From NCBI GenBank assembly GCA_024228355.1, contig JAAETN010000382.1, forward strand, positions 1 to 33,220: a stretch of 33,220 bases of DNA. Reading direction: 5' to 3'. The notes under the pieces were generated by a model. That model saw nothing but the letters and a program-made list of their open reading frames with translations, was not told where the DNA came from and made no database searches. This DNA comes from Maribacter sp. (lineage in GTDB: Bacteria > Bacteroidota > Bacteroidia > Flavobacteriales > Flavobacteriaceae). Shown here in pieces: positions 26,198-32,418 of this stretch. Every line of letters begins with the position of its first letter. The first letter of the stretch is position 1. A program made the position numbers and the translations under genes.

Positions 26198-28975
26198 CTA
26201 AAGTTTTTCCCTTAGGTAATTTGCGGTGAAAGAAGTTTTGCTTTGTACGATCTGTTCAGGAGTACCCTGGGCAAGCAATTTTCCACCATTTTCACCTCCT
26301 TCTGGGCCAAGATCAATAATATGGTCCGCACATTTAATAAGTTCAATATTATGCTCGATTACAATGACGGAGTGACCACGGGCAATGAGAGCATCAAAAG
26401 ATTTCAATAATTTCTTGATATCGTGAAAATGTAATCCGGTAGTTGGTTCATCAAAAATGAACAAGGCCTTGTCTTTTGAGGTTCCCTTCACTAAGAATGA
26501 AGCTAATTTAATACGTTGAGCTTCGCCACCTGATAAGGTAGAGGAAGACTGACCTAAAGTAACATACCCTAAACCAACGTCGCGCAATGGCTTGAGTTTA
26601 CTTACAATTTTAGTTTGGCTATGCTTTTCAAAGAAGTTGATAGCGTCATCAATGGTCATATTAAGGACATCATCAATACTCGCATCCTCAAATTTAACTT
26701 CCAATACTTCTTTTTTAAATCGCTTGCCACCACAAGTATCACATTCAAGATGTACATCGGCCATAAACTGCATCTCTACGGTTATTTCACCTTCACCCTT
26801 ACATTTTTCACAACGACCACCATCAACATTGAAAGAGAAATGTTTGGCCTGGTAGGCTCTGATTTTACTTAATTTCTGTGAAGCGAATAAGGCTCGGATA
26901 TCATCATAGGCCTTTATATATGTAACAGGATTGGAACGGGATGATCTACCTATAGGATTTTGGTCAACAAATTCTACATGTTTTATAGATTGATATTTAC
27001 CTTCGACAGCGGTAAACTGTCCGGCCTTTTGACCGTAGCCTCCTACTTCCTTAAGTATAACCGGGTATAACAGTTTTTTTACCAAAGTACTTTTACCACT
27101 TCCTGATACTCCCGTTATTACGGTTAGCATGTTCAAAGGAAAAGTTACGTCGATATTTTTAAGGTTGTTTTCTCGAGCCCCTTTTATCTCAATATAATTA
27201 TCTGATGACCTCCTTGTATTGGGAATCACTATATTTTCGGTGCCATTTAGATAACGTGCAGTTAAGGATGTGGATTTAAGAATTTCTTCCAAAGTACCAT
27301 GTGCAACAACTTCGCCTCCCTGTGTTCCGGCTTCAGGTCCGATATCAATAACTTCATCGGCCGCCATCATAATATCCTCGTCATGCTCTACTACGATAAC
27401 GGTATTGCCCAGATCTCGAAGGGATTTTAATACGTCTATGAGGTTTTCGGTATCCTTGGGGTGTAATCCTATACTAGGTTCGTCCAATATATACATTGAA
27501 CCCACAAGACTACTACCTAAAGAGTTTGCCAGGTTTATACGCTGACTTTCACCACCAGAAAGTGTGTTCGATTTTCTATTTAAGGTAAGGTAGTTAAGTC
27601 CAACTTTTTCCAAAAAACCCAATCTGGTATTAATTTCTTTCAGCAATCGAGACGCAATTTTAATATCGTACTTGTTTAAGGAAATATTAGTAAAGAACAC
27701 AACCAATTTCTTTATTGGCAATTCAACCAAATCTGATATCGATTGGCCATCCACTTTCACATAGTCGGTCTCTTTACGTAATCGTTTGCCCTTGCAAAGG
27801 TTGCATCTGGTTTTTCCACGATAACGAGAAAGCATTACCCTATTTTGGATCTTATAGCTTTTCTCCTCTAGCATTCCAAAAAATCTATAAAGCCCGGTAA
27901 AATGCGAATTACCATCCCAAACTAATTGTTTTTGATCCTCAGAAAGCTTAAACCAAGGCTTATGTATGGGAAAATCGAACTTATAAGCAGAGTTTACCAA
28001 TTCATCACGGTACCGACCCATACTTTCACCACGCCAAGGAAATATGCCACTTTCAAAAACAGAAAGTGCTGTGTTGGGAACTACCAAATCTTCATCTATA
28101 CCAATAACATCCCCATATCCTTCACATTTTGGGCAAGCACCATATGGATTATTAAAACTGAAAAGATGGGCATTGGGCTCTAAAAAGGCCATTCCATCTT
28201 TTTCGAACTTATTATTGAATACAAATTGCTTTTTGGTTGCAAGTTCCTCAATGATGCATTCTCCCTTGCCCTCAAAAAATGCTGAATCAATGGCATTGGC
28301 CAATCGGTTGTAAAAATCCTCGTCGTTTTTTGTTATTATTCTGTCTATGACAAGACTAAATTTCCGACCAATGTCTTTTGGGGCAGCATCAATACGTATA
28401 ACCTCTTCCTTAAATTTAATTCTGGCATAACCTTGTTTAGAAAAAAGTTGTAGTGATTTTATGGGGTCTCGATCATCTTTTATAACTATTGGTGCAAGCA
28501 ATAATAGTTTTTCACCTTCATTGAAAGCCTGAACATGTTTTACAACATCGGTGACCGTATGTTTTTTTACTTCTTCGCCAGATATGGGAGATATTGTCTT
28601 ACCAATGCGGGCATAAAGCAATTTTAGATAATCGTATATCTCAGTGGTAGTACCGACTGTAGAACGAGGATTCGTGGAATTTACTTTTTGCTCTATAGCT
28701 ATAGCGGGCGCAATCCCTTTGATATAATCGACCTTGGGTTTATTTAATTTTCCCAGGAACTGCCTGGCATAGGAAGATAGACTTTCAACGTATCTGCGCT
28801 GACCTTCAGCATATAAGGTGTCGAAGGCCAAGCTAGATTTTCCTGAACCTGAAAGTCCAGTTATTACGACCAGCTTATTCCTTGGGATAGCAACGTCAAT
28901 ATTTTTCAAATTGTGCAAGTTTGCACCTTTGATTATTATATTTTCCTTTGGATTTACCTCAAGTATTGAAGGCAT
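26198..28975 (-). CDS. uvrA: Excinuclease ABC subunit A
   Basis: [36 protein letters not shown]; two ABC signatures ([28 protein letters not shown]); zinc-finger CxxC motifs. The start at 28975 ([26 protein letters not shown]) is preferred over 29017. Confidence 0.97.
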
Positions 28976-29219
28976 AATATTTGTTAGGTCTGCAAAGATA
29001 CGATATGTGAAATGCAATTGCTAACAAAGCTGTTTTAACGTCATAAATCATGATGATCTTAATACTATTTTTTTTATAACCTATATTTTTTTCTATATTT
29101 GACCTTAACAAAATGTTATCACGCCTATAGCAAGACAATTACTTTTTAAAATTAGTGTATGATCCAAAAGGCCTTTTTATAACAATTGGCCCTTGGTTTT
29201 AACTAAAAAAGTAATTGAT

Positions 29220-29801
29220 ATGGAGCTTCAACTTGCAGATTCCCAACTTATAAGATATTACATCAAAGGAGACGAAAGAGCTCTTGAAACATTGATTAAT
29301 AGGCATAACCAACGACTTAGTAGTTTTATATACTCCAAGGTCAATGACCGAGAAATTACCGAGGATATATTTCAGGATACCTTTATTAAAGTCATACGGA
29401 CCCTGAAAAAAGGAAGATATAGTGAAGAAGGCAAATTCTTGCCTTGGGTTATGCGAATTGCCCATAACCTGATAATAGATCATTTTAGAAAGAATAGTAG
29501 GATGCCCTTGTTCGAAGGTACAAGTTCATTTAATATTTTCTCAGTAATAAGCGATGAGAAGTTGAATGCAGAAAAACAGCTTATAAAAAATCAAATAGAC
29601 AAAGATTTGGTATTGCTTATTGATGAATTGCCCAAAGATCAAAAAGATGTTTTGGTAATGCGTATATATAAGGATATGAGTTTCAAGGAAATTTCTGAAA
29701 ATACGGGTGTTAGTATAAATACGGCTTTGGGACGAATGCGTTATGCCTTGATCAATCTTAGAAAGATAATTGAAGAGAATAATATTGTTTTAACGAATTA
29801 A
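29220..29801 (+). CDS. ECF-type RNA polymerase sigma-70 factor, cassette copy A
   Basis: EDIFQDTFIKVIRTLKKG...FLPWVMRIAHNLIIDHFRKN (region 2); DELPKDQKDVLVMRIYKDMSFKEISENTGVSINTALGRMRYALINLRK (region 4). Start at 29220 aligns with the paralogue start. Confidence 0.93.
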   Translation: MELQLADSQLIRYYIKGDERALETLINRHNQRLSSFIYSKVNDREITEDIFQDTFIKVIRTLKKGRYSEEGKFLPWVMRIAHNLIIDHFRKNSRMPLFEGTSSFNIFSVISDEKLNAEKQLIKNQIDKDLVLLIDELPKDQKDVLVMRIYKDMSFKEISENTGVSINTALGRMRYALINLRKIIEENNIVLTN

Positions 29802-29916
29802 TCATCCCGTAGGTCGAGCATCTTTTAGTTTTGACGAATTAAAAGGTCTTAGGTCGAACGTATTTACTATATTTATTGATGTGGCGTTTTCTTAATGAAA
29901 CAATACTGAAGAAAAT

Positions 29917-30060
29917 ATGGAAAATTTTTACGTCAAGAATAAAAGCAAGTGCAAAATAGTAAAGGCAAAACCAGAAACCATTGAGTTTTTGCTGAATTAT
30001 TCCAAATCATTGAAGATCACTGAGGCGGAAGGTATAAAGTTCGAAAGTAACCTGAACTGA
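29917..30060 (+). CDS. 47-aa small protein, cassette copy A
   Basis: MENFYVKNKSKCKIVKAKPETIEFLLNYSKSLKITEAEGIKFESNLN*. Same length as, and about 49% identical without gaps to, the 31091..31234 ORF. Below the track cutoff. Confidence 0.8.
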   Translation: MENFYVKNKSKCKIVKAKPETIEFLLNYSKSLKITEAEGIKFESNLN

Positions 30061-30082
30061 ATAATCCTTAGAGAAAAATTTG

Positions 30083-30117
30083 AAACCCTTATTACTTATG
30101 TAGTAAGGGTTTTTTTA
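30083..30117 (+). terminator. Intrinsic terminator after cassette A
   Basis: AAACCCTTATTAC-TTAT-GTAGTAAGGGTTTTTTT hairpin with T tract. Confidence 0.88.
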
Positions 30118-30436
30118 TACCCCTAATTGAAATAGGATTTACTTTGGACTAGCATTTTACGAAAACACTGGTTTAATATATTGTATTAGTTCATTACATC
30201 GACACAACTTCCATTCTCTTAAAATATTGTGATAAAAATCAAAAATCATTGTTTCACATCAAAATCCAAGGGTTTGACAACATAGTTTTTTCTGCACACC
30301 CTGTTTTATCTAGTTTTAGGTCATAATTAAAGAATAGCACAGTTTAGAATTGACCGTGTTAAAAACTCAAAGTAATACTAACTAATATTAAGCTTTAACT
30401 AAACAAAGCCCCTAATCTTAAAAAAAAGTAATTTGT

Positions 30437-31021
30437 ATGGAACTACAAATCGAAGATTCAGAACTAGTAAGAGATTATATCAGCGGAGATGAAAAAGCTC
30501 TCGAAATCTTAATTAACAGACACAACCAACGTATTTCAAGCTTTATTTATTCTAAAGTATTGGATAGGGATATTACGGAGGATATATTTCAGGATACTTT
30601 TATAAAAGTAATCAAAACCTTAAAGAAAGGGACTTATAGTGAAGAAGGTAAGTTTTTACCTTGGGTAATGAGAATTGCCCATAACCTTATCATAGATCAC
30701 TTTAGAAAGAACAAAAGAATGCCTATGTTTGAAGGCAACGATGACTTTAATATCTTTTCTGTAATAGGGGATGACAAGTTAAATGCCGAGAAACAACTGA
30801 TAAAAGATCAAATCAATTCAGATTTAAGATATCTTATTGATGAATTGCCAGATGATCAGAGAGAAGTACTTTTAATGCGTATCTATAAAGATATGAGCTT
30901 CAAGGAAATTTCAGAAAATACTGGTGTAAGTATAAATACTGCTTTGGGTAGAATGAGATACGCTCTTATTAACCTCAGAAAGATCATTGACAAAAACAAT
31001 ATAGTTCTTACAAATTCATAG
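30437..31021 (+). CDS. ECF-type RNA polymerase sigma-70 factor, cassette copy B
   Basis: Ungapped alignment with 29220..29801: 162 of 193 residues identical by manual count. Confidence 0.93.
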   Translation: MELQIEDSELVRDYISGDEKALEILINRHNQRISSFIYSKVLDRDITEDIFQDTFIKVIKTLKKGTYSEEGKFLPWVMRIAHNLIIDHFRKNKRMPMFEGNDDFNIFSVIGDDKLNAEKQLIKDQINSDLRYLIDELPDDQREVLLMRIYKDMSFKEISENTGVSINTALGRMRYALINLRKIIDKNNIVLTNS

Positions 31022-31090
31022 TACTTATTTAGTTAAAACAATATTTTGATTTTAGTTGCGTTATTCTAACATAACAATACTATAATCAAT

Positions 31091-31234
31091 ATGGAAAAAA
31101 TTTACTTTGAGAATCAAAAGAAAAGCAGTCCAGTCATGGCCTGCAGAGAAACAATCCAGTTTTTGACCAGTTATTCCAAGTCGCTCTGTATTGTTCATCA
31201 CAACAATTTACAGTTTGAGATAAACTTAAACTAA
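31091..31234 (+). CDS. 47-aa small protein, cassette copy B
   Basis: MEKIYFENQKKSSPVMACRETIQFLTSYSKSLCIVHHNNLQFEINLN*; paralogue of 29917..30060 (shared ETI.FL..YSKSL.I and C-terminal NLN). Confidence 0.8.
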   Translation: MEKIYFENQKKSSPVMACRETIQFLTSYSKSLCIVHHNNLQFEINLN

Positions 31235-31235
31235 T

Positions 31236-31265
31236 AAAAAGACCCGTAATTTAGCGGGTCTTTTT
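31236..31265. terminator. Intrinsic terminator after cassette B, overlapping the 3' end of nth
   Basis: AAAAAGACCCG-TAATTTAG-CGGGTCTTTTT; on the minus strand it overlaps the last codons of nth. Confidence 0.88.
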
Positions 31266-31913
31266 ATATTTATAATAGTCACTCAAAACTGTTTTTCTTC
31301 CTATAGTCTTGGTTATAACGTCTTTGTCGAGATTCCATCCTCTTGCAGGGGAATATTCCCTGCCATACCAAATAATCTGCAAGTGAAGGTCATTCCAGAT
31401 TTCTTTAGGAAAAATTCGTTTGGCATCTTTTTCAGTTTGCACCACATTTTTCCCTTTTGAGAATCCCCATCGATACATTAATCTGTGAATATGGGTATCT
31501 ACAGGGAAAGCAGGGGTACCAAAAGCTTGGGATACAACCACACTTGCCGTTTTATGACCAACCGAAGGCAATTCTTCCAACAGCTCAATATCATTTGGCA
31601 CAGCTCCATCATACTTATCAATCAAAATTTGGGATAACCCATAAATACCTTTCGATTTCATAGGGGAGAGACCTACGGGTTTAATTATGTCACGAATTTC
31701 TTCCACTGATAATTTCACCATGTCGTAAGGATTATCTGCCTTGGCAAATAATACTGGGGTTATTTGATTAACTCTAATGTCAGTACTTTGGGCAGACATA
31801 AGCACAGCAATTAAAAGAGTATAGGGGTCTTTATGGCTTAAAGGGACAGGGATTGTTGGATACAAATCCCTAAGCGTTTTTATAGTGAAATCGATCTTTT
31901 CCTTTTTTGTCAT
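31251..31913 (-). CDS. nth: Endonuclease III-like DNA glycosylase lacking the C-terminal Fe-S cysteines
   Basis: HhH-GPD: LLIAVLMSAQSTDIRVNQITP; ELPSVGHKTASVVVSQAFGTPAFPVDTHIHRLMYRWG (catalytic Lys and Asp). No Cys in the translation. Confidence 0.92.
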   Translation of the reverse strand: MTKKEKIDFTIKTLRDLYPTIPVPLSHKDPYTLLIAVLMSAQSTDIRVNQITPVLFAKADNPYDMVKLSVEEIRDIIKPVGLSPMKSKGIYGLSQILIDKYDGAVPNDIELLEELPSVGHKTASVVVSQAFGTPAFPVDTHIHRLMYRWGFSKGKNVVQTEKDAKRIFPKEIWNDLHLQIIWYGREYSPARGWNLDKDVITKTIGRKTVLSDYYKYKKTR

Positions 31914-31959: not shown

Positions 31960-32418
31960 TTGAATATGAATACATTAATAGTGGGGGACAAGGTTCCCTA
32001 TTTTACTTCTAAAGATCAGGATGGGAATGCTGTAAGTTTATCTGATTTTGCCGGGAAGAAACTTATTGTTTTTTTCTACCCAAAAGCCAGCACCCCAGGT
32101 TGTACTGCTGAAGCCTGTAATTTAAGGGACAATTACACTGAGCTGCAATCCCAGGGTTTTGAATTGTTAGGGGTTAGTGCAGATTCCGAAAAAAGACAGG
32201 CAAATTTCAGGAATAAGTATAAATTCCCATTTCCATTGTTGGCAGATGAAGATCGTACTGTTTTAAATATTTTTGGAGTCTGGGGACCTAAAAAGTTCAT
32301 GGGACGTGAGTATGACGGAATACACAGAAAGACCTTTGTTATCAATGAAGAAGGTATTGTTCTAAAGGTAATTGATAAGGTGAAGACCAGGGATCACGCT
32401 GCGCAATTAATGGACTGA
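31960..32418 (+). CDS. bcp: Thioredoxin-dependent thiol peroxidase (peroxiredoxin Q/BCP)
   Basis: VFFYPKASTPGCTAEACNLRDNYTELQSQGFELLGVSADSEKRQANFRNKYKFPFPLLADED. Confidence 0.93.
   Translation: MNMNTLIVGDKVPYFTSKDQDGNAVSLSDFAGKKLIVFFYPKASTPGCTAEACNLRDNYTELQSQGFELLGVSADSEKRQANFRNKYKFPFPLLADEDRTVLNIFGVWGPKKFMGREYDGIHRKTFVINEEGIVLKVIDKVKTRDHAAQLMD

Follow-up and report, generated by a model that had tools for sequence, protein, structure and literature searches.

The DNA analysed here, which we refer to as the window, is a stretch of 33,220 nucleotides from Maribacter sp. (contig JAAETN010000382.1). It contains two tandem copies of an ECF sigma factor gene. Each copy is followed by a small open reading frame (ORF) on the same strand.

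29220–29801, forward strand: ECF sigma factor copy A, 193 aa, with Pfam matches to Sigma70_r2 and r4 and with orthologues in the genus.
29917–30060, forward strand: small gene A, encoding 47 aa with a predicted helix (residues 19–31) and β-hairpin (32–45); a candidate minimal anti-sigma.
30437–31021, forward strand: ECF sigma factor copy B, 194 aa, with Pfam regions 2 and 4; the slower-evolving copy in the tree.
31091–31234, forward strand: small gene B, a 47-aa paralogue of small gene A.

The flanking ORFs at 26198–29017 (reverse strand), 31251–31913 (reverse strand) and 31960–32418 (forward strand), which we take from sequence recognition to be uvrA, nth and bcp, recur in conserved synteny among relatives. 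The two sigma proteins are 84% identical, and each tandem copy retains its own small partner. In a tree of the sigma factors, in which several forks are weak, copies A of many genera cluster apart from copies B, and copy A is the faster-evolving of the two. Read in this way, the tree shows that the tandem duplication of sigma gene and small gene (29220–31234) is old, arose within part of the family and predates the genus. An orthologue of the sigma factor was found in 257 of 296 genomes of the class, with one per genome outside the duplicated clade. By this count, it is a near-universal and mostly single-copy ECF sigma factor of the class.

The preliminary description of 29917–30060 gave a sequence that matches the window exactly and claimed a protein-coding gene. 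The claim is borne out by selection and by an ORF that stays open in relatives. Small proteins A and B are 49% identical over 47 of 47 residues, without gaps; the earlier figure was about 51% difference at identical length. Equal length despite such divergence had been taken as a sign of selection on the protein. The conclusion was right, and is upheld by third-position bias and a dN/dS of about 0.1–0.2 overall; the argument from length is weak by itself. In a survey of the genus, the small ORF was present in 11 of 12 genomes, the remaining genome being 68% complete. Both copies were found, and every full copy encoded 47 aa with zero stops; one further copy was interrupted by a contig end. Stops and frameshifts in relatives, which had been named as grounds for rejecting the gene, were looked for and the ORF was open throughout. 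Within the genus, pN/pS was 0.22 for copy A (9 sequences) and 0.20 for copy B (10 sequences), and the median dN/dS of the small gene was ~0.1. Differences at codon positions 1, 2 and 3 numbered 273, 215 and 746 for copy A, and 275, 236 and 788 for copy B, an excess at third positions. The amino acid sequence was also conserved across the order. Judged by these patterns of substitution, the ORF at 29917–30060 is a real gene, and is under strong purifying selection.

The same data bear on a different kind of product. The functional molecule might be a sigma-dependent small RNA of ~200 nt that holds the ORF incidentally, or a dual-function RNA. The shortness of the unit, which has a promoter motif and a terminator to itself (described below), would suit such an RNA. 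A comparable case is Rfp11 of Flavobacterium psychrophilum, a putative regulatory RNA listed with a CGT-box (SM6) promoter and conserved beyond that species (PMC9723704, Table 2C). Rfp11 resembles the product of the small gene in being short, conserved and transcribed from an ECF-type promoter with a CGT box; it differs in having been published as a putative regulatory RNA (PMC9723704). Possibly, Rfp11 is what the small gene gives rise to in that species. However, a small regulatory RNA of the Rfp11 kind would be expected to lack coding constraint, and here constraint is strong: change is biased to third positions, dN/dS is low and the amino acid sequence is conserved order-wide. The region of the window also had no Rfam match. 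We consider an RNA product very improbable.

The 47-aa family is widespread. A profile built from the two window sequences detected it in 175 of 201 Flavobacteriaceae genomes (174 of 200 genera). With a 65-sequence profile, every Flavobacteriaceae genome but one in the order sample was recovered, as were other families of the order. An 82-sequence profile recovered the last genome too, and thus all in the sample. Flavobacterium genomes likewise yielded the sigma and small genes. The linkage between the two is established: in every inspected Flavobacteriales locus, the small ORF was 42–115 nt downstream of the same sigma orthologue, in the same orientation. The sigma factors at these loci were 50–100% identical to that of the window. 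As expected of an anti-sigma gene, the small gene is adjacent to and co-oriented with an ECF sigma gene in Flavobacteriales, as are its longer relatives in other orders.

Each small gene is flanked by a promoter-like site and a terminator-like hairpin.

29866–29890, forward strand: site resembling an ECF promoter ahead of small gene A, with ACTATA followed by CGTTTT at 29885–29890; its PWM score of 24.2 is the second highest in the window.
30083–30117, forward strand: intrinsic-terminator-like hairpin and T run after small gene A, recognised in the sequence.
31038–31064, forward strand: site resembling an ECF promoter ahead of small gene B, with the sequence ACAATA-N15-CGTTAT; its PWM score of 32.9 is the highest in the window.
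31236–31265, forward strand: intrinsic-terminator-like hairpin after small gene B, recognised in the sequence.

An AAC-type box and a CGT box at such spacing is the layout of an ECF promoter. The CGT box has also been described in PMC9723704. The site of copy A is in the same register as the ACAATA/CGTTAT of copy B, with a 5′ box two bases shorter. In 100 of 100 upstream regions, CGTT was found 22–46 nt before the start codon, and A-A-T-A-like bases stood at a constant spacing from it, which gives the consensus ACAATA-N15-CGTTAT. The CGTT was used for alignment; hence, the remaining columns are independent evidence. These include A at −19 (94%), T at −17 (90%), A at −16 (91%) and T at +5 (93%). 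The motif is also seen ahead of partner genes from other orders. The pattern ACAATATTT-N12-CGTTAT matches the genome exactly at one site only, upstream of small gene B. Near matches to the motif were not enriched genome-wide (34, versus 27 for a reversed-pattern control) and no regulon emerged. We infer that the promoter of the small gene is most likely read by the upstream sigma factor.

In copy A (29840–29895), the promoter-like site is preceded by an extra conserved TAGGTCGAAC block. Many copies (29840–29895 and 31038–31080 in the window) have ATAAC ~6 nt after GTTAT, which makes a short palindrome across the point where transcription is expected to start. The F. psychrophilum CGT-box list suggested gldN (Type IX secretion) as a target; this was rejected, since gldN had no conserved site for the motif nearby in the genus. 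A search for Peptidase_C25, run without a positive control, returned nothing.

A hairpin and T run soon after the small ORF was seen in most inspected Flavobacteriales loci. With its own promoter motif and terminator, the small gene can therefore be a separate short mRNA. A promoter motif so dedicated and specific, paired with a terminator, could also serve an effector: the small protein would be the main product of the sigma factor's response, with another target and no role on the sigma factor itself. We think this improbable, given strict linkage to one sigma factor across a class and the homology of the family to an anti-sigma domain (below). The terminator-like hairpin immediately 3′ of the ORF also has the appearance of an attenuator, for which the ORF would be the leader peptide. 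Yet the protein is conserved throughout, without regulatory codon runs. Moreover, nth behind copy B is on the opposite strand, as it is in most single-copy relatives, so there is nothing to attenuate. Gene order refutes a leader peptide for copy B, and we give the idea as a whole almost no credence.

The sigma A gene has upstream elements of its own.

29094–29101, forward strand: probable primary-sigma promoter −7 box, TATATTTG, of sigma gene A, proposed from sequence.
29123–29219, forward strand: structured 5′ leader of sigma A, from a 43-sequence alignment and covariation.

The −7 consensus is TAnnTTTG (PMC9723704). The leader carries an invariant GCCTATA (29123–29129), and an arm, CAATTACTTTTT (29136–29147), that pairs with AAAAAGTAATTG (29206–29217) just before the start codon. 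Among 43 Flavobacteriales sequences, 9 of the 12 pairs of this helix showed changes on both sides. This was equalled in 0 of 500 shuffles, and slid versions of the helix scored far lower. The longest stems had a mean of 10.7 pairs, compared with 6.2 in shuffled ends. The leader belongs to no Rfam family; matches in the window were sub-threshold only, and mostly terminator-like. We regard the leader as a candidate for a new cis-regulatory RNA, which would gate translation of the sigma factor by sequestering its start codon. Copy B apparently lacks the 5′ arm.

The core of the small protein had been proposed to form a short helix. AlphaFold2, supplied with the family alignment, agrees with this and predicts one helix at residues 19–31 (pLDDT about 92). 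A β-hairpin follows, with strands at residues 32–37 and 40–45; the mean pLDDT is 79. The 47-aa form has no match in Pfam, NCBIfam or among PDB sequences (PDB chains at E ≤ 1). Foldseek searches with the model returned no matches, as expected because the fold is so small. Hence, neither sequence nor fold gives a direct match of the 47-aa form to a known anti-sigma. The last residue is Asn in 82 of 82 aligned Flavobacteriales members (window codons 30055–30057 and 31229–31231), and in many hairpin-keeping relatives from other orders. It could be a C-terminal recognition signal. In the small protein and the sigma factor alike, a helix is often followed by a terminal Asn; mimicry of the sigma C-terminus was rejected, with an hhalign probability of 0.2%.

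In other orders of Bacteroidia, the downstream neighbour of the sigma gene is a longer relative of about 53–87 aa, and is of two kinds. The first kind (53–79 aa), which we call intermediates, keeps the same helix and either continues into a C-terminal hairpin or ends straight after the helix. In the second kind (69–87 aa), the full form, the N-terminal part resembles an anti-sigma domain. The AlphaFold2 model of the full form has four helices (pLDDT 89). Of its 21 Foldseek matches among 350,542 PDB chains, 20 were to MucA, RsiW, ChrR, RseA, RslA or RskA. Single E-values exceeded 1, and the support that Foldseek lends to this modelled fold is in the unanimity of the matches. A full-form profile, run over the genomes, also picked the N-termini of proteins of 250–300 aa, several of which adjoin other ECF sigma genes. 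Six of the seven examined carry RskA_C or zf-HC2, one of the six below the curated cut-off. One full-form member matched the NCBIfam anti-sigma model with an E-value of 7.5e-6, which is below the model's cut-off.

Profile comparisons with hhalign join these forms in steps. The 47-aa form aligned with the intermediates at a probability of 98% (E 2e-13), and the intermediates with the full forms at 97% (E 1e-10). Direct comparison of the 47-aa form with the full forms gave 84% (E 8e-6) over P-x3-T-I-x2-LL-x-YSKSL, an alignment of 24 columns only. The best of 60 column-permuted controls per comparison reached 3.5%. Taken together, profile similarity indicates that the 47-aa form is homologous to the anti-sigma domain, and it does so only through the intermediates, up to the N-termini of the RskA_C and zf-HC2 proteins. 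Outside Flavobacteriales, HMMs recognised a partner at 46 of 80 sigma loci, many of which had trained the profiles, compared with 0 of 80 on the opposite strand. At the other 34 loci no partner was recognised by the HMMs.

At loci L264, L271, L274–L276 and L279, which represent some families of the class, only 1–7 nt separate the end of the sigma match from the start of the full-domain partner gene. There is therefore no intergenic promoter at these loci, and sigma factor and partner may be translationally coupled there.

Class I anti-sigmas contact sigma regions 2.1/2.2 through helix 4, which blocks RNAP binding, and region 4 through helix 1 (PMC7406223). By alignment, helix 4 is the counterpart of the helix that the 47-aa form retains. 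We also measured mutual information between this retained helix and the sigma factor in 181 pairs, with an effective number of 54. Sigma residues 30–45, which are situated at the beginning of region 2 and make up 8.5% of columns, received 12 of the top 30 couplings. For the 121 pairs with UvrA, the count was 10 of 30; entropy-matched UvrA controls averaged ~4 of 30, and reached 10 in 1 of 40. We treat this coupling of the helix with sigma region 2 as suggestive only.

No function was offered in the preliminary description. The present analysis adds the anti-sigma reading, a promoter motif of sigma type and a family that extends across the class. Because the relatives in other orders resemble classic anti-sigmas, the 47-aa protein is probably a stripped-down brake on the sigma factor. 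Specifically, we think it likely to be a minimal soluble anti-sigma of the upstream ECF sigma factor, transcribed by that same factor as negative feedback. The ancestor would have been a complete four-helix anti-sigma domain of ~75 aa, such as is still encoded at the same place in other orders. In Flavobacteriales, helices 1–3 would have been lost and the last helix kept, with the core P-x3-T-I-x2-FLL-x-YSKSL. The kept helix would then run into the short β-hairpin that ends in the invariant asparagine. By docking on sigma region 2.1, it would hold the sigma factor off RNA polymerase. The small gene would be transcribed from its own intergenic ECF-type promoter, most likely by the same sigma factor, which would complete a circuit of negative feedback. 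Both tandem sigma copies have kept a partner of their own. We infer the inhibition, the binding face and an inducing signal.

A partner need not be an inhibitor. Known complexes have a helix in contact with sigma region 4 (PMC7406223); this helix has been lost, and the 47-aa form has gained a hairpin and an invariant C-terminal Asn that the full-domain relatives lack. After loss of helices 1–3, the protein might thus act on the sigma factor as a co-activator, a stabiliser or an adaptor, with hairpin and Asn serving, for example, in delivery to a protease or sensor. Conversely, the retained helix is the counterpart of the helix that covers the face by which sigma region 2 binds the polymerase, and an ECF sigma gene is usually accompanied downstream by an anti-sigma gene (PMC7712824). 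We consider a non-inhibitory partner unlikely, but less so than an effector.

A broader version of the anti-sigma reading can be put forward tentatively. The 47-aa protein could represent a new structural type of ECF anti-sigma, in which a sigma-2-binding helix and a hairpin with terminal Asn replace helices 1–3. This type would occur in most or all Flavobacteriales, beside a class-wide core sigma factor, and would be made from the sigma factor's own intergenic promoter. With the sigma gene gated by an RNA leader that sequesters its start codon, the result would be a two-layer loop. On this account, the loop would have been overlooked because the gene has only 47 codons.

In Bacteroidetes, anti-sigma domains are found beside only 6% of ECF sigma genes, compared with an average of 32%; the low figure was said to necessarily reflect other modes or broken synteny (PMC7406223). 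If the anti-sigma reading is right, a near-universal sigma factor of the class has its partner next door after all, hidden because of its small size and the erosion of its domain. A 47-aa gene tends to escape annotation, and this order comprises common marine and soil bacteria. The family offers a natural graded series, from full anti-sigma domain to single helix, in which one can ask for the smallest working anti-sigma. It also gives a starting point for work on an uncharacterised flavobacterial core sigma factor.

Three known systems are worth comparing. EcfO-Reo of Bacteroides, from the same phylum, likewise pairs an ECF sigma factor with an adjacent anti-sigma. Equivalence is ruled out, since Reo extends across the entire envelope, from the cytoplasm to the surface of the cell (PMC13114119). 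Like the class I ASDI proteins RseA, MucA, RsiW, ChrR, RskA and RslA, the 47-aa protein is encoded beside an ECF sigma gene, and its longer relatives at the same locus have four helices in the predicted model. Unlike them, it has no helices 1–3, membrane segment or H-x3-C-x2-C zinc motif, and it ends in a β-hairpin. With a single helix and hairpin, it falls outside the four-helix class I fold, and we do not file it as a plain class I member because helices 1–3 are absent. Its monomer model also departs from the two-helix form of CnrY (class II) and NepR. Whereas CnrY uses two helices and is membrane-bound, the 47-aa model has one helix and a hairpin, and matches no PDB chain. What the small protein would share with CnrY and NepR is a very short inhibitory segment with its last helix on sigma region 2 (PMC7406223, PMC4598750), which makes them analogues of how it may work.
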